In this document: positions 894 through 10,968 of the stretch, piece by piece
Layout: every line of letters begins with the position of its first letter
Numbering within the stretch: position 1 is the stretch's first letter
Assembly (NCBI GenBank): GCA_029834535.1
Contig: JAQMWT010000337.1
Coordinates: 1-64,000, forward strand
Origin: Chrysophaeum taylorii
Taxonomy: Eukaryota > Sar > Pelagophyceae > Pelagomonadales > Pelagomonadaceae
Length of the DNA stretch: 64,000 nucleotides
Direction of reading: 5' to 3'
Translations under genes and position numbers: made by a program
The notes under the pieces: generated by a model
Told to the model about the DNA's origin: nothing
Seen by the model: only the letters and a program-made list of their open reading frames with translations
Databases searched by the model: none

Positions 894-898
894 TTAGT
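894..898. repeat. Left target-site duplication of the LTR element (TTAGT)
   Basis: The five bases TTAGT directly before the 5' LTR are repeated directly after the 3' LTR at 10964-10968. A 5-bp duplication is typical of Ty3/gypsy integration. Confidence 0.75.
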
Positions 899-1213
899 TG
901 TGGCGGCAACTCCTGACCGCTAAGGCTTTTCCGCCCTTTCTTGAGGCGTGATACCCGTTCAACGGGACGCTTTCCCCTACTTCCTACTGACATCATACCT
1001 CTCCTAGAAGCATTCTTGCAGTATTCTTGTAGCATTCTTGCTATCATATACCATCTCTCCATCTTGTTGAGAGGCTTGGTGAGCGTGAGCAAGGTGTGTG
1101 GCGAGCATATCCGACCCCGAGTCCGTGTTTTCCTCGTTCAGTGAGGTCTAGGACGAGTCGGTGAGTACCCTTTGTCACCCGGGGGTCGGGAGTGGTTTTT
1201 CTGTGCCGCCATA
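899..1213 (+). repeat. 5' LTR
   Basis: Starts TGTGGCGG and ends CCGCCATA, an imperfect 8-bp terminal inverted repeat. It aligns along its whole length with 10642-10963 apart from scattered substitutions and two small indels. Confidence 0.9.
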
Positions 1214-1638
1214 CGTGGTGGAGTACGAGATCGAGCGACTACATCGGTCGCCGACGAACGAGTGCCGCCGTACGTATTGTATTACGTGGTCCGGATTTGC
1301 ACGTGTGCCCTGATCAAGCACGCGGAGTTCCAGTGGACCGGTTTGCGTTGAGAATATACGCGGACTTTGTTTTGTTCGTGCGTTCCGAGAGACGACGAAC
1401 ACGCGTGCGAGTTGGAATCGCAGCGCATTCACCCGGGGAATTGATTTTGGTAGAGCTGAACGGCGGAAGCTGTTAGCGAGTGGGATCGCTACCCACGGGC
1501 ATTTTGGATTGCCAGCGGATTGGAATTCCGTGAGTGCTGTTTTTACAGCGACAGATAGCGTTGTTGGGATCAACGTGCATTACTTCGAGTGATCGGATCC
1601 GGACGTGTTTCGAGATTCTCATCGACATTTGATACAGT
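1214..1638 (+). other. Retrotransposon leader between 5' LTR and Gag
   Basis: An untranslated leader of about 425 bp. A primer-binding site should follow the LTR directly; the sequence there (TGGTGGAGTACGAG, from about 1216) begins with the TGG expected opposite a tRNA CCA end, but I cannot assign the tRNA. No other structure was seen. Confidence 0.45.
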
Positions 1639-2301
1639 ATGGATACAGACGCAGACGTGCGTGAGGAAGAATCTCCTCCAGTTCTTCCCGCCGCCCCTGA
1701 GATAGGCCGCGAGGAAGGTGAATTAAGAGAGGCCGAGGCAGTCGACGTTGCTGACTTGCCCCCTGACGTGCCTCCGGATACTGCAATTTTTTCGCCGTTG
1801 AGTCCAACGACCCCGGACCGTGGCGAGCGTGTTACGATTGAGCGCGGATCCGCAGCCCGAAGTCGACTTCGTGAAGACCTCGAGCGGAGACGTCGCGAAA
1901 ATGAACGATTAGCTGAGCGATTTGCCCGTGAAAGGGCTGAAGCGAAAGAAGAAGCGGCTCGACGAGAAGTGGACATGCTAAATGACGCATTGCAGCAAGA
2001 GATCGAGACAACGAAGACCCTACGTGAAGAGGTTGAACGATTTCGTCGTGAGCGAGATGAATTGTTAGCCGAACGTACGCGTCGTGAGAGTAGCCGCGAA
2101 CGACCCGTGAGTCGACCCGAACCGGAAACGCCCGTGAGGCGGCCTGAACCGGAAAGGAACACTGAAACGGGGGATGAACCTCCGCCCAGAGTCGATACGG
2201 AGACTGAGGGTAGGCTGAGGATGAAGGTACGAAATTTTTACGGGGATTATCACGGGGATTATCGCAGACGGTTGCGGACGCCTTCGAGAAGGCCAACTTG
2301 A
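1639..2301 (+). CDS. Gag-like N-terminal coiled-coil protein of the retrotransposon
   Basis: A 220-residue acidic/arginine-rich protein. Residues about 65-155 are a strongly charged helix (many E, R, A and L in heptad-like spacing) that should form a coiled coil, as in some Gag N-termini that drive particle assembly. The frame ends at 2301 and overlaps the next frame, which has no ATG at its left end and remains open upstream. The two are therefore probably one Gag protein joined by a frameshift, either programmed or a mutation. A 12-bp direct repeat near 2239-2262 lies just before the overlap. Start chosen as the only ATG after the leader. Confidence 0.6.
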   Translation: MDTDADVREEESPPVLPAAPEIGREEGELREAEAVDVADLPPDVPPDTAIFSPLSPTTPDRGERVTIERGSAARSRLREDLERRRRENERLAERFARERAEAKEEAARREVDMLNDALQQEIETTKTLREEVERFRRERDELLAERTRRESSRERPVSRPEPETPVRRPEPERNTETGDEPPPRVDTETEGRLRMKVRNFYGDYHGDYRRRLRTPSRRPT

Positions 2302-3356
2302 GCCGATCCCGTCGCCCCACTTCCAGTTTGAAGCCTGACAACTTCAAACTCGTCATCGACGGCCGAGATCAACGGCAATTCAATCTGGATTCGGCAGCGG
2401 TGATGCATACTTTAGCAGATGACCATTACTCGGTCGAGAAATTACGTTACCTATTACCGGTGCACTTACGGGATACCGTTGCACCAATTTTTGAGGAACA
2501 TTTGCGGAAATACGAGGAGCTCTGCGATGAGCTACCGCACGGTCCGTCGTTTTACTTGAAATTGGATGCTGACGACGAAGAGCATGGAGCCTCGGTTCGT
2601 CGCATCCGTCGTCTTAATAAGGCGTATTGCGATAAAATTCTGGATTATTTTAGATCGACTTGCCGACCTCCGAGCACGCAGCAGGAGCTGCTCGATAAGC
2701 TGCGGAAGGTCACTCAGTCTTCAGTTCCGAAGAAGTCTGGGGAGCGGCACGTACAAACGTATTGTACCAAATTTCAGAGTGAGGCTTTGGCCTTTTGTAC
2801 CGTGTCCAGCCGCACGATGGATGACGTTGATATCCTCGACCAGCTTATCAGTGGTTTGGCGTCCAAGGAGCTGCGGACCCGTGTGCGGACTATGAGGAGC
2901 GGACATCCGGATAGTTACTTGACTTTTAAGTCGATGGTGGCGCTTATTACGCGACTCGAGAACGACTTTCGAAAGTTGATGGAGGAGGAGAAGGACCAAG
3001 GGCCTCCCAATCCGAAATCAAATAAACCGCCGCGAGGGCGGGGAGGTCGAGCTATGACTTCCGATCAACAAGCTAAGCAAGATGCGGATAAACCGTCTGG
3101 GAATACGGATCCGCTGATCTTACGAGATCCTTCTTGGTGGTGCAAGAAGACGTGCAAGGACTGCGGATTCTTCTGGACCACCCATGATGAAGATGAACAC
3201 GGAAATCGCGTGGTTTGCAACCGCGATCCGGACCGTTATTACTGTGCGATGTGGAAGCGCATTCGCAAACAGAAGAAGCAACCCATATCGCGTTCCGATT
3301 GGGAGAAGCGCGATGATGCATCTCATGCGAACGCCACGCGGATCGGAGCCTACTAA
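2298..3356 (+). CDS. Gag-like capsid region of the retrotransposon
   Basis: About 350 residues in the frame shifted from the preceding coiled-coil segment. The middle (residues about 40-220) is helical and resembles the retrotransposon Gag capsid domain, including a conserved-looking YCTKFQSEA segment and an LISGL segment. A basic Gly/Arg stretch near residues 240-255 is followed by a Cys cluster (KKTCKDCGF and later C residues) that could bind zinc, though it is not the standard CCHC knuckle. It ends in TAA at 3354, and a second stop follows at once. As Gag it would package element RNA into cytoplasmic particles. Confidence 0.6.
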   Translation: MSRSRRPTSSLKPDNFKLVIDGRDQRQFNLDSAAVMHTLADDHYSVEKLRYLLPVHLRDTVAPIFEEHLRKYEELCDELPHGPSFYLKLDADDEEHGASVRRIRRLNKAYCDKILDYFRSTCRPPSTQQELLDKLRKVTQSSVPKKSGERHVQTYCTKFQSEALAFCTVSSRTMDDVDILDQLISGLASKELRTRVRTMRSGHPDSYLTFKSMVALITRLENDFRKLMEEEKDQGPPNPKSNKPPRGRGGRAMTSDQQAKQDADKPSGNTDPLILRDPSWWCKKTCKDCGFFWTTHDEDEHGNRVVCNRDPDRYYCAMWKRIRKQKKQPISRSDWEKRDDASHANATRIGAY

Positions 3357-3371
3357 TGAAATCCAAACTGA

Positions 3372-4028
3372 AATCCAAACGGCCCTCACCGAGCTTGGAA
3401 CCACAATGGCGACCGTGGTGAGCGAGGTAGAGGTATCAAGGATAGCAAGTCGTCTTCTACACGACAGCGAGACGGACGATCACCTTCTAGACGATCGTCG
3501 CGCCGACATCGAAGTAAGAGCCCTGATCGAAAGGCCAATACTCCTCAAACAAGCCCGAGCCCCCGCCGTCGCCGCCATAGCCGGAGCTCTAGTCGCAATT
3601 CGCGCCGGCGCAGACGTCATCGACAGCGCGATGACGAATATGACGGAGGCCGATATCAGGATAGTTCGGGACATTCGAGCGCAACTTTCGCGTTCCAATC
3701 TCTATGCGAAGCGCCGCCATCGTCGGGTGTTGTCTTTTACCCGACGGCGCGCCCCGCCCGAGTCTCCGATGATGTTGCCGATGCCGCTGTGACGAGCAGC
3801 CATCGCTTGCAACAGGAGCAAAATACCACCAACGCTCGGATCGTTCGGTGGCCTTCTACATCGTATGTGGAAGCAATATCAGATGCAACTTTGGATTCTC
3901 CGCGCTACTGGGAAGACTCAGACTCGGAGACCGACGAACCCATGCCGCAGGTTCCAGTGTCCCCCATTCTTCAGTGTGCATGTCTTGCAGGACAGTTCGC
4001 GATGATGACGTTAGACCTTTCGAGTTGA
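3372..4028 (+). pseudogene. Arg/Ser-rich segment between Gag and protease
   Basis: This frame is the same as the capsid frame, separated from it by three close stop codons (3354-3371), and stays open to 4028. Its first 110 residues are dense in RS, SR and RRR runs (SRRSSRRHRSKSP is one), like the RS domains of splicing factors. The later half is acidic (EDSDSETDEP) without a recognisable fold. Basic RS tails in Gag would bind nucleic acid; a nuclear or splicing-factor contact is also possible. Both roles are inference. The stops suggest an inactive copy, or an original junction suppressed during translation. Confidence 0.45.
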
Positions 4029-4106
4029 CGTCGGGGTGATGTCTTCAGTGCAGTTCCCGACGATGACGTTAGACCTTTCGAGTTAACGTCGGGGACGACG
4101 TCTTCT
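3993..4106 (+). repeat. 58-bp tandem duplication inside the element
   Basis: Two copies (about 3993-4050 and 4051-4106) share the core GATGACGTTAGACCTTTCG and differ at several positions. The unit is not a multiple of three, so it changes the reading frame and is likely part of the element's decay. Confidence 0.7.
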
Positions 4107-4162
4107 TTTCCTACGCCCCCCCCCCCGAGACCATTTTATCTGATGTTTTAGCCGATACAGTT

Positions 4163-5730
4163 TTGGTCGCAGCAGTGCAGGCCACAGCGGCGCCGATGGA
4201 GGGGTTGACGGGAATGTCCGATTTGATGGACGAGAAACGAAAATTATCCGAAGAGATAAAGGAGGAAGTATATGTGCCTCCGATTGAGAAGTGTCAAAAT
4301 TTGTTGTCAGCGAAACTGGGAATGAGGAAGCAGCCGAAGTGGCGAGTGCCAATATAGATTCAGAAGCGAGATGTGGGACGCCAGATGTGGCAGCGGTGAC
4401 GATGCAGATGCCGGGCGATGCGAAACCGGAGATACGATGTCATCACACTGCACTTTCGCCTAGCGATGGGGAAAGATCGAGCAAGACCTCATCACCATCG
4501 GTTGTTTGGACCCTGGTACACTTACATTCATAGTTGGTCATATCTACAGACGACGAGACGGGCCGAAGTTCGTAACGACTTTAGGCGTGGATGGAATGGC
4601 GGATGTCTCTATATTTGTCGTGGGATGGTCGAAAAACTGGCAAAGGATAATATCATCCTGGACCGAGGCGATCTTCCAGTCGAGCGCACCCTGTACGGGT
4701 CAGGATTGAATAAGACGACTATCCACAAATGGGTCGCATTGCGGATTGCGCTCGCGGACGACGTGGCCGTTCCAGTGGCTGCCATTGTGGCCGATACTAA
4801 TCACTTATTTCTGCTGGGAGCGCGCGATATTCGGGTGTTGGGAGCCATAGTGGACTACCCGCGAAATCGCATTGCGTTTCTCCGCACACAAGTCGCTTAT
4901 GGGCGCAAGAAGTTAAAGGTGCAGGATCGACGAGTCGATTCTCCGATTTTGACGTTCAGAACAACTTATGACGAGCGCAATCCCGTGGTAGTTCAGGTTT
5001 ATGGGCAACAGCACCATGCGATGCAAAAGAGCCTGAGCACAGTTGAGAACCGAGTCTACGCTCGCTTGTGCAAGATTGAAGACCTCCAGCGTCCACCGCC
5101 GAAACGAGCGGGAGCTTCGACGACTTGGGGAGTCCCTACAGTTACGCCTTCTCAAAGTTCGAACAGCGATGCCTATGAAGTGATAGCCTATGCTGCGCGC
5201 ACGATGAAGGTCGAGCCTGGGCGCACTTGCGTGCCAGTCGCTCTTTCAGAGCCCATGGAAACCGGGCAAGTTTTCGTTGCTACGTCTTCTGGATACGAGC
5301 AACTTGGGGTAGTCGATGGAATGTCTTCTCCTGTGGATCATGACAAGTTCGCAGCTCGAGTGGCGATCTCCTCTACCCAGGATGTGCCGACCGTGATTAC
5401 TCAAGGTGAAGTTCTTGCTTGGGGCGATATTGTTCGTTTTGATGACGAGCTGAATGCTGAGACGGTCGACGATTTAACGAAGGATGGTGAAGCCGAATCT
5501 GACAAGGCTAACCTATCATTCACTGTTTCGGTCGCAAGCCATCTGACTCAAGGCGATGCGGCTTCCGAACCGATGCTTTTAAGCTCGGTGAAGGCGTCTC
5601 CTTCTGCCGATAAGAATAAGAATTCTCGTCAAGAATCGCTCGGTAACGACGATTTCGACCGACGAACCGACGAGGAGGAAAAGAAATGCCGAGAAGTTAC
5701 AGAAGGCGAGATTCGCCGAAGGTTTGAAAA
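4163..5730 (+). pseudogene. Retropepsin-like protease and linker (broken)
   Basis: A retropepsin active-site-like motif (LDPGTLTFIVG, against the family's LDTG/LDSG pattern) lies at about 4503-4540 in one frame. The following body, with a typical flap/C-terminal segment FLLGARDIRVLGAIVDYP at about 4808-4862, lies in another frame, so at least one frameshift separates them. Asp followed by Pro instead of Thr or Ser would weaken or abolish activity. A linker of about 250 residues follows, rich in acidic residues near its end, and runs without interruption into methyltransferase motif I. The protease would mature the polyprotein. Frames before 4418 are short and shifted. Confidence 0.55.
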
Positions 5731-5734
5731 GGTC

Positions 5735-6640
5735 CACTGGGTGCCGATCACGTATCGCAAGGTTGTGATGCTCTTTAGCGGCGCCGGAGGAAGTACTTTA
5801 GGACTGCAACGAGCGAATGAGTTGTGCGGACGTTTCGAGTCGTCCTTGCTCTTGACTTTCAACAGCACCAACAAGATTCATCAGAAGAATTTTCCGAAGA
5901 TACCTGTGGTTCAGCACGCTCTGCGGACGATATGACTCGACCCTCCGATTGATCAAGGCTTATTTGCCTGAAGCGGAATGGTCATCGTCGATGTATAGCG
6001 TCTCCACCCTGCGTTCATTCAGCACTCTGCAACTTGACATCCAGAGATGTTGGCAGGGAAGTTACGGCCACTAATTGGACGATGAAGCTGTGCAAAATGG
6101 CTGGCTTCATGATGTGGCTCATCGAACAGGCGTCCATTATTTCTTATATAGCGCGCTTACACCCTTACGTGTACGTCGTCAATTTTCATGATATCACGCC
6201 CACTTTGATGAGCTCTCGCGTGCGATTGTTGGTTTCCAGTCACCCACTGCACTTGCAAGAGGCTCCGAAGACATGTGCGAATATGCAACAAAAATTTGCT
6301 GCAGCTTTAGGTTACGCGGATGAACGCCACCTGCTCCCGCTGAATAGTCTCGGCTCGTCCCGAGAAGCAACAGATACGGCTTACACCGTTACGCGAGTTC
6401 CTCTTCGTTTGGGACCGCATCGCTCGGACACTCAGCCTTTGACTCTCGAGATGACGGCCGAGTTGCTCACGATGCCGCTGGACCATGATTGGGCTAGCTT
6501 GTCTAAGACAGATTCGTTCAAACATTTAGCGTCTGTCGTCCCTCCAGACACTCTTGCGATTTTAGCAGTCGATCTGCACAACTCCGTGACCAGAGGTTTC
6601 CGCCAAAGTGGCGAAGTCCTGCCGACCGCGTTGAGCCCGA
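5735..6640 (+). pseudogene. Cytosine-C5 DNA methyltransferase domain of the retrotransposon (frameshifted)
   Basis: The domain would transfer methyl groups from AdoMet to cytosine C5. Motif I (LFSGAGGSTLGL) is at about 5770-5805 and a motif II-like segment ending in NFP at about 5893. The catalytic motif IV core SPPC, with its cysteine codon at 6010-6012, sits in a different frame. A possible motif VI (IEQ in place of ENV) is near 6121-6129, motif VIII (SSRVRLL, for QxRxR) near 6210-6230, motif IX (PLTLEMTAELL) near 6435-6470 and a motif X-like segment (SVVPP) near 6530-6545. Motifs I-III use one frame, the next 18 or so residues a second, and motif IV to X a third, so this copy cannot make the enzyme in one piece. 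Motif order is that of ordinary C5 methyltransferases, not a plant chromomethylase permutation. Position between protease and RT makes it part of Pol. Confidence 0.8.
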
Positions 6641-6767
6641 CAGATCGATCCTTTGAGCAGTATTTGCGAATTACCGACACCACCCTTCGTCACGTACAGA
6701 TTCCGCTGTTAAACGCGTACTCGTGTCGTTAAGTGGGTGTCAAAGATGATCTCCAGGATCCCACTAA

Positions 6768-7916
6768 ATGGGAACCGCCAGAAGTCCCTATGCTTCCGCT
6801 TCCAACAGATGCGCCGGGGACGGCTCATGCTTTTTCTGCTGCCCCCGACAATCAAAAGTGGACGTTCCGCCGGATCCTGAACCTGAACAGGAGCCGAAAG
6901 TAAGGAGCGAGCCGAATGTGCGCGTCAAAGGTGAAAAGATCAATAAGAGCCACCCTGAGGTGAGGTTCAAATACGAAGAAAAGTTCGATGTGCCATGGAA
7001 GGATGCGCCGCGCGACGCGGACGGTGTACCGTTACCGCAGACTCCGGAGCACGTCAAGGACAATGAGGCGATGAAAGTCGTAACTCCGACGAAGGAAGAA
7101 GTCGAAAAGGTTGTTCGAGAACTGGGAATTCCCGACAACCCGCATCTGGATGAGGATGCGAAGATGATGTTGAGCCACTGCGTGCAATACGCGTGGGCCT
7201 TTTTTGATCCGATTATGAGACCCGTGGACTCGCCACCGGTTTCTCTACGATTTAAAGACGCAAACCCACGACCGATCAAGATGACGCCTTATAGGTTGAC
7301 GCCAGCAAAGCTCGAGTGTCTCAGAAAGCAGATCACTGAGTGGTGTCGCGATGGAGTCATCCGACCGGCGAACTCTCCGTGGGGATTCCCTGTACTGATG
7401 CTGCCTAAGAAGGGAGCAGAGGCCGGGACGTCGAATGCTTTTCGTGCTGCAGTTGACTTGCGTCAGCTCAATGATCAGCTGGTCAATGACAGTTGGCCGA
7501 ATATTCGTCAAGATGATGCTTTGGCTTTTCTTGCCATGCGCCGTTGGCGGACGTGCATTGATATTCGATGGGGTTATCATAACCTACGTTTGGACGCCGC
7601 CGCTCAGGACGCCGTTACGATGGTTAGTCCACTTGGAGCCCATAGTTTCTTGCGCTTGCCTCTAGGAGTAAAAACAGCAGGAGCTCTCTTTTGTAAGCAG
7701 ATGGCTAGCGATTTGTCCACATGGATGTATAAGGACTTGGTCGCGTTTGTCGACGATATTATGATGGGATCGGATGAACTCCACCGACATTTACAAGTTT
7801 TGATTGAAGTGTTGTGCCATTTAGCGCAGCGAGGATATAGTGGACGAACTTCGAAGTTCCACCTCCTCAAGGATGAAATCGAGTTTTGGGACATATTTCG
7901 ACTCCGGAAGGCTTGA
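6768..7916 (+). pseudogene. Reverse transcriptase fingers/palm region
   Basis: The open frame encodes RT core motifs: an N-terminal MTPYRLTP segment, LPKKG, FRAAVDLRQLN, the first-Asp segment TCIDIRWGYHN, LPLGVKTAGALFCKQM, and the catalytic FVDD (variant of YxDD) at about 7747-7758. Both palm Asp residues are present. The first 70 or so residues before the core are charged and of no recognised fold. The frame is lost near 7888, where the reading continues in another frame through the WGHI box. The enzyme would copy element RNA into cDNA in cytoplasmic particles. Confidence 0.9.
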
Positions 7917-8640
7917 AGCCGAATCCCAAGACGTTAGAAGCGTTGCAGCAGATGCCGATTCCCGGTACGTTGCCCAATACGTCCCCGAAGACCCAGATTC
8001 GATCTTTCATCGGCATGAGCAACTATTGCCGCCGATATGTGAAGAATTATTCGAAGATTGTGGAGCCGCTGAGGCGATTGTGTCTTGAAGGCGTTAAGTT
8101 TGAGTGGACGCCGGAGTGCCAAAATGCATTGGACACGATCATCGAAGCTTTGGTGGACTCTCGCGGAGTTTATCATCCTGACTACGATGTTCCTTTTCAG
8201 ATCCGCTCGGATGCTTCCAAGGATGGTCTGGGCGCGTATCTTTTCAGCTCGTGGAAGTCAAGGACGAAACCGGCAAGGTGACACGAGAGGAACGAGTGAT
8301 TGAGTATTGGAGCCGAGCTGTGCCGAAAGAGATGCGGAACTATGAGCCCCGCCGGCTAGAGCTACTGGCAGTTATTCTTCTCTTAAGCATTTCCGCTCTT
8401 ATATCGAAGGTCACAAGACGATCCTTGAAACGGATCATCGCAACTTGACGTTTTTACGAAAGGCGAAGCACTCGTCTGGGCAGTTGGCTCGATGGGCGAT
8501 GCGGCTCGCCAATTTTGATCCTGAATTGGGTTACAAACCAGGGAAGTCGCCGGGAATGAGTATCCCTGACTGTCTCTCTCGCAATCCTATAGATCATGTC
8601 ATCGAGACGGATGAGTTTGGTGAACCCTTGAACCACGCGT
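7886..8640 (+). pseudogene. RT thumb/connection and RNase H region (frameshifted)
   Basis: Continues RT in three successive frames (changes near 7888, 8262 and 8395). It shows the GHISTPEGLKPNP box, the SFIGMSNYCRRY segment, the RNase H first-Asp motif (FQIRSDASKDGLGAYL), an RLELLAV glutamate segment and the ETDHRNLTFL motif typical of Ty3/gypsy RNase H, then a SGQLARWAMRL tail. RNase H would remove the RNA strand during cDNA synthesis. All catalytic carboxylates can be located, but not in one frame. Confidence 0.85.
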
Positions 8641-10125
8641 ACCTAGTGTGCCAAGAACTTCCTCGCCCTGTCGATGATGAAGGAGTACCTTTACCTGGGT
8701 GCCATGTCATTCTGTCGTTTGTTACGACTGAGTTGCCTGTGGAGGAAGAAGAAGATGGTCGCGACGATCCGATGCAATTGGTCACGTCTCACGCTACGAG
8801 ACAACGTCAGAAGCAACGTCTGCAGACCCAACCTAGTATTTTCCGTGATGCCGATGATTACCAAGAGTACATCGACAAGATTCCGGATAATTTGACTTTG
8901 GAAGAGATAGCCAAAGAGCAGATCACTGATGCTACTTGCGAGGACATTCGTTATCGCATGGCTCAGGGCCATTCTCTTCGTCGGTACGGAGCCAATTATC
9001 GCTATCAAGTGGTGAAAGGAGTTCTCTACCGTGCCGCACCTGACTTGCACCCGATGATAGTCGCACCCCGAACTTTACGGACGCGCATCATCCGATTGTA
9101 CCATGACACACCTCTCAATGGTGGTCACATGGGTCGTCAAAGTACAGTGCAGTCGATACTTGAACGTTTTTGGTGGCCCCACATGTCTAATGAGGTGGGT
9201 GCTTACATTGCTGGTTGCATAGTGTGCAAGAAAGCTCGTACGCCTGAACCAAAGAGAGCAGGTCTTCTTCAGCAACCGGTGTATGATGGTGATTGCGCCG
9301 TCCTTTGTATGGATTTGTTCGGACCTTTGCCCAGTGCTGGTCCCGAGACATATCTGATCATCTTTTGATCCATTTTCTCATTTCTTGATTCTTGACGTAC
9401 TACACCATAAGACTGCTGAGTCAATCCTCGAGTCTTTTGTCGCGAATATATTACTCAAAGGTTATCTACCTCAGAGGATTCGTACCGACAATGGGAAAGA
9501 GTTCGTCAACAAGTTGATGGAAGAGTTTTGTCATCTCTTCAATGTTCGGTATAGTACCACGATTCCGCATCATGCTCAGGCTAATCCTGCGGAAAGGGTC
9601 AACCGCTTTATCAAGGCTTTCCTCCGTGCGTGTCTTCAAAACCGCAAGATCACGGACTGGCCCGAATTCGCGGAGTACATTGCTTTTTGCTACAATCGTA
9701 AGTTTATTCCGGGAACTCAGATCTCACCTTTCATGCTTCGTCTCAACCGGCAGCCTCTATTGCCAACAGATTATACGATCATGGATCTTGATGTCCGCCG
9801 CCTGCCGAAAACTCGCTCCGATGTTGTGGCAGAGACTCGCGAGAGGCTGAAGTTCTATACCGCTACGGTGAACGAAGCTCGCGAGAAGGCTCTTCGTAAA
9901 CAACGTCTCGCTTACAATGCGGACCATGTCGATGTGGAGTATGAAGAAGGTTCACATGTTCTGCTCTACATCCTTTTTCTTCAGAACAAGCTTCGACCGG
10001 AATGGCGCGGTCCATTCGTTATTTTGGAACGCTTGTCCCCGGTCACCTACAGGATTGAGTCGCTTGATTCTCCTCCTGAACGCCGTTGTGTTCACGTTAG
10101 TCAGATCACCCCTGTGATGGTTTCT
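8640..10125 (+). pseudogene. Integrase with HHCC, DDE and GPY/F-type modules (one frameshift)
   Basis: The zinc-binding HHCC module is seen at about 9100-9235 (HDTPLNGGHMG, then GCIVCKKAR). The catalytic core has the first Asp in CMDLFGP (about 9310), the second in RTDNGKEFV (about 9481) and the Glu in NPAERVNRF (about 9592), giving D-x34-E spacing. The GPY/F-type module RPEWRGPFVILERLSPVTYRI lies at about 9996-10060; I list it only as a motif. The frame changes near 9368, where a stop interrupts the core between the first two catalytic residues. The enzyme would insert cDNA into host chromosomes and leave the 5-bp duplication seen here. Confidence 0.9.
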
Positions 10126-10611
10126 CCGGTGGTCCATCGAGCTTTGCCCAAACCCAAGGAGACCTTTCGGGATGATTACAAGCATGGTAAGTTCGTTGTC
10201 TTTCGGATTCCAGATAACAAACGGTCCGATTGGCGAAAGAAGATTTACGTCGCTGAAGTTTATGAACCCTATGATTTAGTGAATGATCGAGTCGCTCTGC
10301 ATTTTTATGCTGATCTTGGTCCCCATGACAAGGTTTCTTATTACAAGCCTACCTCACATCTCTCTACTCGCAAACTTAAGCCGGAATACAAGGACGTGGA
10401 CGGTCGCAGTTTCACCGACAAGACCAAGATCAACAACAGTACCACTCCTTGTGTCACCGACTTCGCCCCGCATGAGATCGATGTGTTAATTCCTAAGTTC
10501 ACTTTGCGTAGTGGACGCGTTACCGAACCTGTCGTTGAACGTGTCTACAAGAAGATTCGCCCTCGAGATGCTCATTCAGCCAAGGCTCGTGATTCTCGCC
10601 GGACTCGCTGA
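10126..10611 (+). CDS. C-terminal tail of Pol after integrase, possible chromatin-reader-like domain
   Basis: About 160 residues continue in frame from the integrase after the GPY/F-type module and end at 10611. A segment with alternating hydrophobic and aromatic residues (GKFVVFRI, KKIYVAEVYEP, VALHFYADL) resembles the beta strands of Tudor/Agenet-type or SH3-like barrels. The end is basic (KARDSRRTR). In chromoviruses this position carries a chromodomain that directs integration; this sequence is not an obvious chromodomain. A targeting role is inference. The unbroken frame contrasts with the rest of the element. Confidence 0.45.
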   Translation, partial: PVVHRALPKPKETFRDDYKHGKFVVFRIPDNKRSDWRKKIYVAEVYEPYDLVNDRVALHFYADLGPHDKVSYYKPTSHLSTRKLKPEYKDVDGRSFTDKTKINNSTTPCVTDFAPHEIDVLIPKFTLRSGRVTEPVVERVYKKIRPRDAHSAKARDSRRTR

Positions 10612-10641
10612 GGGCAGCTCGTATTCTCACCAGGGGAGCCC

Positions 10642-10963
10642 TGTGGCGGCAACTCCTGACCGCTAAGGCTTACCCTCCCTTTCTCGAGGCTTGATACCCG
10701 TTCAACGGGACGCCTTTCCCTACTTCCTAGTGACATCATACCTCACCCTTGTGAGAAGCATTCTCGCAGTATTCTTGTAGCATGCTTGCTATCATATACC
10801 ATCTCTCCATCTTGTTGAGAGGCTTGGTGAGCGTGAGCAAGGCGTGTGGCGAGCATATCCGGCCCCGAGTCCGTGTTTTCCTCGTTCAGTGAGGTCTAGG
10901 ACGAGTCGGTGAGTACCCCCTTTGTCACCCGGGGGTCGGGAGTGGTTTTTCTGTGCCGCCATA
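10642..10963 (+). repeat. 3' LTR
   Basis: Matches the 5' LTR with scattered changes. It is preceded by a purine-rich stretch (CCAGGGGAGCCC) that fits a polypurine tract, and followed by the TTAGT duplication. Confidence 0.9.
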
Positions 10964-10968
10964 TTAGT
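10964..10968. repeat. Right target-site duplication (TTAGT)
   Basis: Copy of 894-898, directly after the 3' LTR. Confidence 0.75.

Follow-up and report, generated by a model that had tools for sequence, protein, structure and literature searches.

A Ty3/gypsy LTR retrotransposon family of the pelagophyte Chrysophaeum taylorii encodes, upstream of its reverse transcriptase (RT), a domain that is almost certainly a cytosine-C5 methyltransferase (MT) and the element's own. The family is represented by a decayed copy of about 10 kb at 899-10963 of the window, the 64,000-nucleotide stretch of C. taylorii DNA analysed here. The features of this copy are as follows.

894..898, no strand: target-site duplication TTAGT, 5' copy (identical word at 10964-10968)
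899..1213, + strand: 5' LTR, 315 bp (window repeat comparison)
2214..3356, + strand: gag-like ORF, 380 aa (label by position only; no Pfam match over the cut-off)
4578..4843, + strand: protease-like region, in two frames in the window copy (VDGMADVS at 4587-4610; LLGARDIRVLG at 4811-4843)
5756..5932, + strand: N-terminal piece of the C5-MTase, motif I to the motif II/III region (intact siblings match PF00145)
5953..6585 (end approximate), + strand: C-terminal piece of the C5-MTase, in the other frame, motifs IV-X (translation and sibling search)
7404..7886, + strand: reverse transcriptase (PF00078, E 1.8e-11)
8105..8516, + strand: RNase H in two frames (PF17919 at 8105-8257; PF17917 at 8379-8516)
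9066..9242, + strand: integrase zinc-binding domain (PF17921, E 1.1e-17)
9367..10104, + strand: integrase core and C-terminal domain (PF00665 at 32.4 bits, just under the cut-off of 32.6; PF22938 at 36 bits)
10642..10963, + strand: 3' LTR, 322 bp (window repeat comparison)
10964..10968, no strand: target-site duplication TTAGT, 3' copy (identical word at 894-898)

The LTRs and the target duplication reported in the initial annotation are in place, with TTAGT on either side of the element. Besides these, the element has the order RT, RNase H and integrase, on which the Ty3/gypsy assignment rests, the protease-like region having no Pfam match. This region is one that we take to resemble a retropepsin. 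Its putative active site, picked by eye, is D-G-M-A in both of the Ty3 families described below (4578-4843 in the window; L093); the retropepsin active site is D-S/T-G(-A). The MT had been placed between protease and RT: its position upstream of RT stands, but since the protease part lacks a Pfam match, the position is safe only as between the gag/protease-like region and RT. The LTR pair differs by 14 substitutions over 315 aligned sites (K2P 0.046) and the reading frame is interrupted at several points, so that the window copy is not a fresh insertion.

The MT motifs named in the initial annotation are found in the canonical order in the window translation, distributed over two frames instead of the three that had been given. 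LFSGAGG (motif I) at 5771-5791 is alone in its frame, and the second frame contains SPPC (IV) at 6001-6012, SSRVR (VIII) at 6211-6225, PLTLEMTAELL (IX) at 6436-6468 and SVVPP (X) at 6532-6546; WLIEQ at 6115-6129 is a motif VI that had been overlooked. The motif names are those that we take to apply to this domain. At E<=1, neither Pfam nor NCBIfam gives a C5-MTase match to either MT piece of the window. When the bases of the window were shuffled 30 times, motif I alone turned up in 2 of the shuffles, and motifs alone would therefore not suffice; the window copy is weak on its own, and the identification rests on sibling copies.

Sibling copies, related families and relatives

In the genome searched (70.8 Mb, 697 contigs), the N-terminal and C-terminal MT pieces of the window family (F1) gave at least 150 and at least 147 rows, scored from 598 and 991 candidates, respectively; by manual count, 22 of the 147 C-terminal rows listed have an internal stop. 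With the other F1 subfamily as query, at least 130 rows were obtained, 23 of them with stops (manual count). Adjacent N-half and C-half pairs are in frame by their spacing in 81 of 85 cases, and 19 linked MT and RT rows sit in ORFs of equal reported length, up to 3067 aa. The LTR search (40 rows scored, 420 candidates) gave 23 LTR-MT pairings with the expected distance and orientation, and three MT loci, the window locus included, have both LTRs among the matches listed.

Fifty loci were inspected, namely the 30 best of the C-terminal piece search (including the window) and 20 chosen by hand, in most cases because of a long ORF; L058 and L088 denote one place. Motif I is present in 46 of the 50, and the domain is unbroken to motif X in 41. 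Alignment A1 comprises 33 of these 41 intact domains (32 distinct copies), a selection that favours intact copies. FSGAGG is invariant across the 33 rows; the exceptions elsewhere are L086 without the motif IV Cys, L065 without one motif IV Pro, and EQG in two rows. Thus, the intact in-frame copies sought after the initial annotation exist as an uninterrupted MT of about 300 aa, and since it is in frame at a matching place in the siblings, the MT is not a nested insertion. Together with the profile matches of the siblings, this placement bears out the proposed ownership of a C5-MTase by the Ty3/gypsy element. The results named beforehand as contrary to it, intact siblings without the domain together with lack of a profile match, or a nested separate element, were not encountered; among the matches listed, 86 of 127 RT rows have an MT within 2.6 kb upstream, and the other 41 are without one.

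An RT relative on contig C225 defines a second Ty3 family (F2), with an MT at the corresponding position upstream of RT. This copy has one stop-free frame of 1066 codons, which contains the protease-like part, the MT and the start of RT. Its MT is up to 42% identical to that of the window family over 300 aa, and the two families are about 41% identical. At least 140 rows came from a search with the F2 MT, including one F1 copy. The merged lists hold at least 240 + at least 124, that is at least 364, distinct MT loci (139 of the 140 F2-search rows used), a count inflated somewhat by haplotype-like contig pairs (C10/C297 and C25/C521). These pairs bear matching insertions at nearly equal offsets, by which the assembly seems to hold uncollapsed haplotypes. 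The F2 MT appears as two overlapping rows at C311:111641-112539 and C299:11997-12895, which may reflect a partial duplication or frameshift shared by several copies. In a second RT search, 50 of 69 Ty3-type rows have an MT within 2.6 kb upstream among the matches listed and the other 19 do not; the 69 were picked by span and score, the rest, including a few short partial rows at similar score, being left out. Contig C696 carries a cluster of other-type RVT_1 matches, including the strongest of this search, possibly organellar intron maturases.

Outside the genome, a metagenomic protein of 982 aa (P0121; ENA, from a 10.2-kb contig) has the order MT, RT and RNase H as in the C. taylorii element, with 34% identity. 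It was the sole match, obtained with a longer F2 query, among 2950 candidates of about 586-1865 aa; the 303-aa domain as a query gave no match among candidates of about 167-530 aa. P0121 has no PF00145 match at E<=1, although on its own it reaches a probability of 92.3 in hhalign against bacterial DNA cytosine methyltransferases (DCMs). No relatives were found in the viral contigs, GTDB genomes or phages searched.

The profile search proposed for the domain gave a positive answer in the siblings. All 33 rows of the alignment, from 32 distinct copies, match PF00145 at E<=0.1, with a best E of 4.7e-7; in single scans, four siblings reach 26.3-28.5 bits (cut-off 22), with the match at motifs I-III in those shown. 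The F2 domain matches PF00145 at E 1.2e-9 (38.5 bits), most strongly at motifs IX-X, and two PHROG DNA-MTase families match five of five domains tried (1.5e-7 to 3.3e-6). The NCBIfam model TIGR00675 (dcm), with a cut-off of 100.65, scores no more than 18-19 bits. A genome-wide PF00145 search (57 rows; 123 of 474 candidates scored) listed host genes and the family B described below but not the window family, probably because of the candidate filter.

The middle of the domain is recognised by profile-profile comparison only. In hhalign, the family profile matches a profile of eight bacterial DCMs with a probability of 97.6 (E 4.8e-12; 245 columns, span 12-287 of 303), which rises to 98.2 on addition of P0121; five unrelated single proteins gave at most 1.1 and 20 column shuffles at most 0.4. 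In this alignment, the bacterial PC, ENV and RxR residues are matched by the SPPC Cys, the leading Glu of EQE and the two RVR arginines, respectively. A set of six rows shows no variation in PPC, EQE, R-x-R or VPP. In a tree, F1 and F2 group firmly, and so does family B, both groups lying on long branches among DCMs (10 of 25 inner branches open). An AlphaFold model of P0121 with the window pieces (5 rows) had a mean pLDDT of 37, and the known RT part was poorly modelled too.

Family B (L089-L092; contigs C582, C314, C96 and C564) is a Ty1/copia-type repeat with a DCM-like domain (LPCQHLS, VENVPPN). The ORF of one copy (L090) contains RVT_2, the Ty1/copia-type RT (E 1.2e-13), on account of which a reading as a LINE or a DNA transposon was dropped, and that of another copy (L091) has a weak integrase match under the cut-off (E 0.0014). 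A genome search gave at least 136 rows (643 candidates, of which 127 were scored), and 53 of the 57 PF00145 rows listed genome-wide lie at family B places, two being host genes and two unmatched (by eye). The family B profile matches bacterial DCMs at 95.9 over 137 columns, but it has no detectable similarity to the Ty3 MT domain (0.3-0.4), and in the tree the two stand apart on long branches; two separate captures are the simpler reading of these sequences. Upstream of the copia-type ORF, L091:957-1391 is a 218-bp tandem direct repeat with 99.5% identity. On C564, a copy of the window element's LTR (L092:3151-3472) lies less than 100 bases from the copia-type MT domain and is perhaps a solo LTR or a nested insertion. 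Beside the repeats, the PF00145 matches listed include two host C5-MTase genes, Dnmt2 (L001), whose protein is identical to CTAYLR_008533 of C. taylorii, and L002, which from its motif IV we take to be Dnmt5-like; intron-split genes may escape such a search. It is tentatively proposed that the Ty3/gypsy and Ty1/copia elements of this one alga independently took up bacterial-type C5-MTases that spread to hundreds of loci, so that retroelements would encode nearly all of its cytosine methyltransferase genes and might set a large part of its methylation; the Ty3 capture would be old enough to be present in a second organism.

In a set of 8 + 8 copies chosen by hand, the median dN/dS of the MT is 0.203 and 0.251 within the F1 subfamilies, and 0.064 between them (63 of 64 pairs usable) at a near-saturated dS of about 1.85; dS against F2 is saturated. 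The domain thus looks to be under purifying selection.

Possible target and role of the domain

On balance, the explanation favoured as a whole is that a bacterial-type C5-MTase within the Ty3/gypsy polyprotein would methylate the element's own cDNA; the self-methylation of cDNA, taken as a step of its own, is evenly poised. The MT would be made within one polyprotein with RT and, lying just before it, would be packed with RT, meet the cDNA first and stay with the particle or the integration complex. It would then methylate cytosines of the double-stranded cDNA before or at integration, and new copies would reach the nucleus already bearing 5mC, which might mimic host DNA or guard against nucleases or deamination. 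CpG observed/expected is 1.24 for the window element, 1.16 and 1.26 for F1 loci, 1.02 for L093 and 0.99 for copia-type loci, and it is 1.29-1.41 for host DNA (ten windows, with base composition and coding content uncontrolled). The CpG level of the element is at most mildly below that of the host, so that there is no strong deamination footprint, and CpG depletion does not serve as proof of self-methylation.

The target of the enzyme is probably DNA rather than RNA. LTR elements use a tRNA as a primer, and a C5-MTase acting like Dnmt2 on this primer or on the element RNA could aid priming, stability or packaging. In keeping with such an activity, the best PDB profile hits of the window family (5 at E<=10) are Dnmt2 chains, at E values of 0.089 and 0.097 that are above the usual threshold; hhalign to Dnmt2 reaches 96.7, and F1 domains taken one by one have a small score advantage with a Dnmt2 model over a bacterial one. 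However, the Dnmt2 match is confined to about the first 100 columns (11-100, or 12-174 with 143 columns when P0121 is added), in contrast to the nearly full-length match to bacterial DNA-MTases, the best PDB hits of the wider profile (4 at E<=10) are chains named 'Cytosine-specific methyltransferase', which are also weak (E 0.041 and 0.36), and the tree puts the Ty3 domain outside the Dnmt2 clade, on long branches. An RNA target is therefore rather improbable. A further reading, in which the domain no longer catalyses methyl transfer and persists as a structural component of Gag-Pol that binds nucleic acid or SAM, draws on the degenerate motifs VI (EQE instead of ENV) and VIII (the usual Gln absent) and on the altered motif I of P0121 (FCGGLDG). 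It is unlikely, given that sequences with 34-42% identity all keep the catalytic Cys, the Glu and both Arg, and that FSGAGG is constant in the 33 window-family rows.

The MT might also serve counter-defence or regulation by methylating host DNA or LTRs, thereby quieting competitors or steering silencing. Such domains do occur in two LTR superfamilies of one host, which also has the DNMT gene L002, Dnmt5-like in look; the location within the polyprotein nevertheless favours the particle or the cDNA, leaving this role a small probability. As to a chance resemblance or a nested unrelated insertion, the window copy alone, without a Pfam MTase match, would admit it, but the in-frame, matching placement in the siblings and their profile support contradict it so strongly that its probability is negligible. 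The alga has been grown in the laboratory and its genome is small, so that the presence of 5mC on young copies, and its context, could be read directly by long-read methylation calling.

Comparison with known systems

Retrotransposon-borne DNMTs are already known; within the literature searched, the pelagophyte elements, the bacterial-type enzyme and its double occurrence are new. Elements with an MT from C. taylorii were not found described in the open-licence literature on retrotransposon-borne DNMTs, pelagophytes and C. taylorii. The genome paper gives an assembly of 71 Mbp and 702 contigs, and 'transpos' does not occur in its main text (PMC10366177). A 2025 paper, with reference to the 2018 work, mentions DNMT3 members within LTR Copia as well as DIRS elements, and its main text makes no mention of pelagophytes or Chrysophaeum (PMC12344493). 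DNMT5a and DNMT6 have been reported from pelagophytes (PMC9998398). An opinion article puts DCM in Ty3/gypsy and DIRS clades and DAM-/DCM-encoding elements in stramenopiles among others (Morozov et al., 2019; PMC6338049), which lowers the novelty of the host group; the passage concerned leaves the stramenopile species and the enzyme class unstated and describes no pelagophyte element.

Since the 2018 report, the reason for a retroelement to bear the very activity by which hosts silence it has been an open question. In the compact 71-Mb genome of C. taylorii, the MT is present at hundreds of loci, in two families about 41% identical that have a metagenomic relative, and a second domain, with no detectable similarity to the first, occurs in another LTR superfamily. 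If both the Ty3 and the copia-type domains are active, convergence of such extent would say that the activity pays.

Bacterial C5 DNA MTases (PF00145; TIGR00675 dcm) share with the C. taylorii domain the order of motifs I, IV, VI (Glu), VIII, IX and X; the latter is unlike them in having EQE for ENV, in the loss of the motif VIII Gln and in its location inside a retroelement polyprotein. Dnmt2 (L001) belongs to the same C5-MTase superfamily and shares motifs I-IV by profile, and the Dnmt5-like L002 is also a member, but neither gives a full-length match; the hhalign probability with the Dnmt5-like sequence is 0.1, a weak test with a single-sequence target. Other elements have their own DNA methylase of another enzyme class, as in the Ectocarpus Sola1 transposon with an N4C/N6A methylase (PMC12477816) and DIRS elements with an adenine methylase (PMC5890265).

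The closest precedents are those of de Mendoza et al. (2018; PMC5890265). SymbioDIRS-Dnmt3 and SymbioLINE-Dnmt of Symbiodinium likewise carry a C5-MTase in hundreds of copies in an algal genome. A mechanistic argument similar to the one given above was made for SymbioDIRS, and its domains gave CG methylation in yeast; the KnitGypsy domain gave no methylation in yeast under the authors' conditions, a result that they called inconclusive (PMC5890265). The capture in C. taylorii is likely to be separate from the dinoflagellate and charophyte cases, as had been suggested initially, in view of the host group and the bacterial-type match; DNMT3 enters this comparison only through the PDB profile hits, 5 and 4 weak ones at E<=10, with no DNMT3 chain among them. 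The Symbiodinium elements are a DIRS (tyrosine recombinase) element and a LINE, whereas the C. taylorii element has LTRs and a retroviral-type integrase. KnitGypsy-Dnmt3 of Klebsormidium nitens (PMC5890265) is nearer to it: an LTR element of the Gypsy type, present in many copies and under purifying selection, whose Pol includes a C5-MTase. That domain is assigned to Dnmt3, and the repeats of the element, according to the figure legend, are DIRS-like, in contrast to the plain LTRs, the nearly full-length bacterial match and the stramenopile host of the C. taylorii element.
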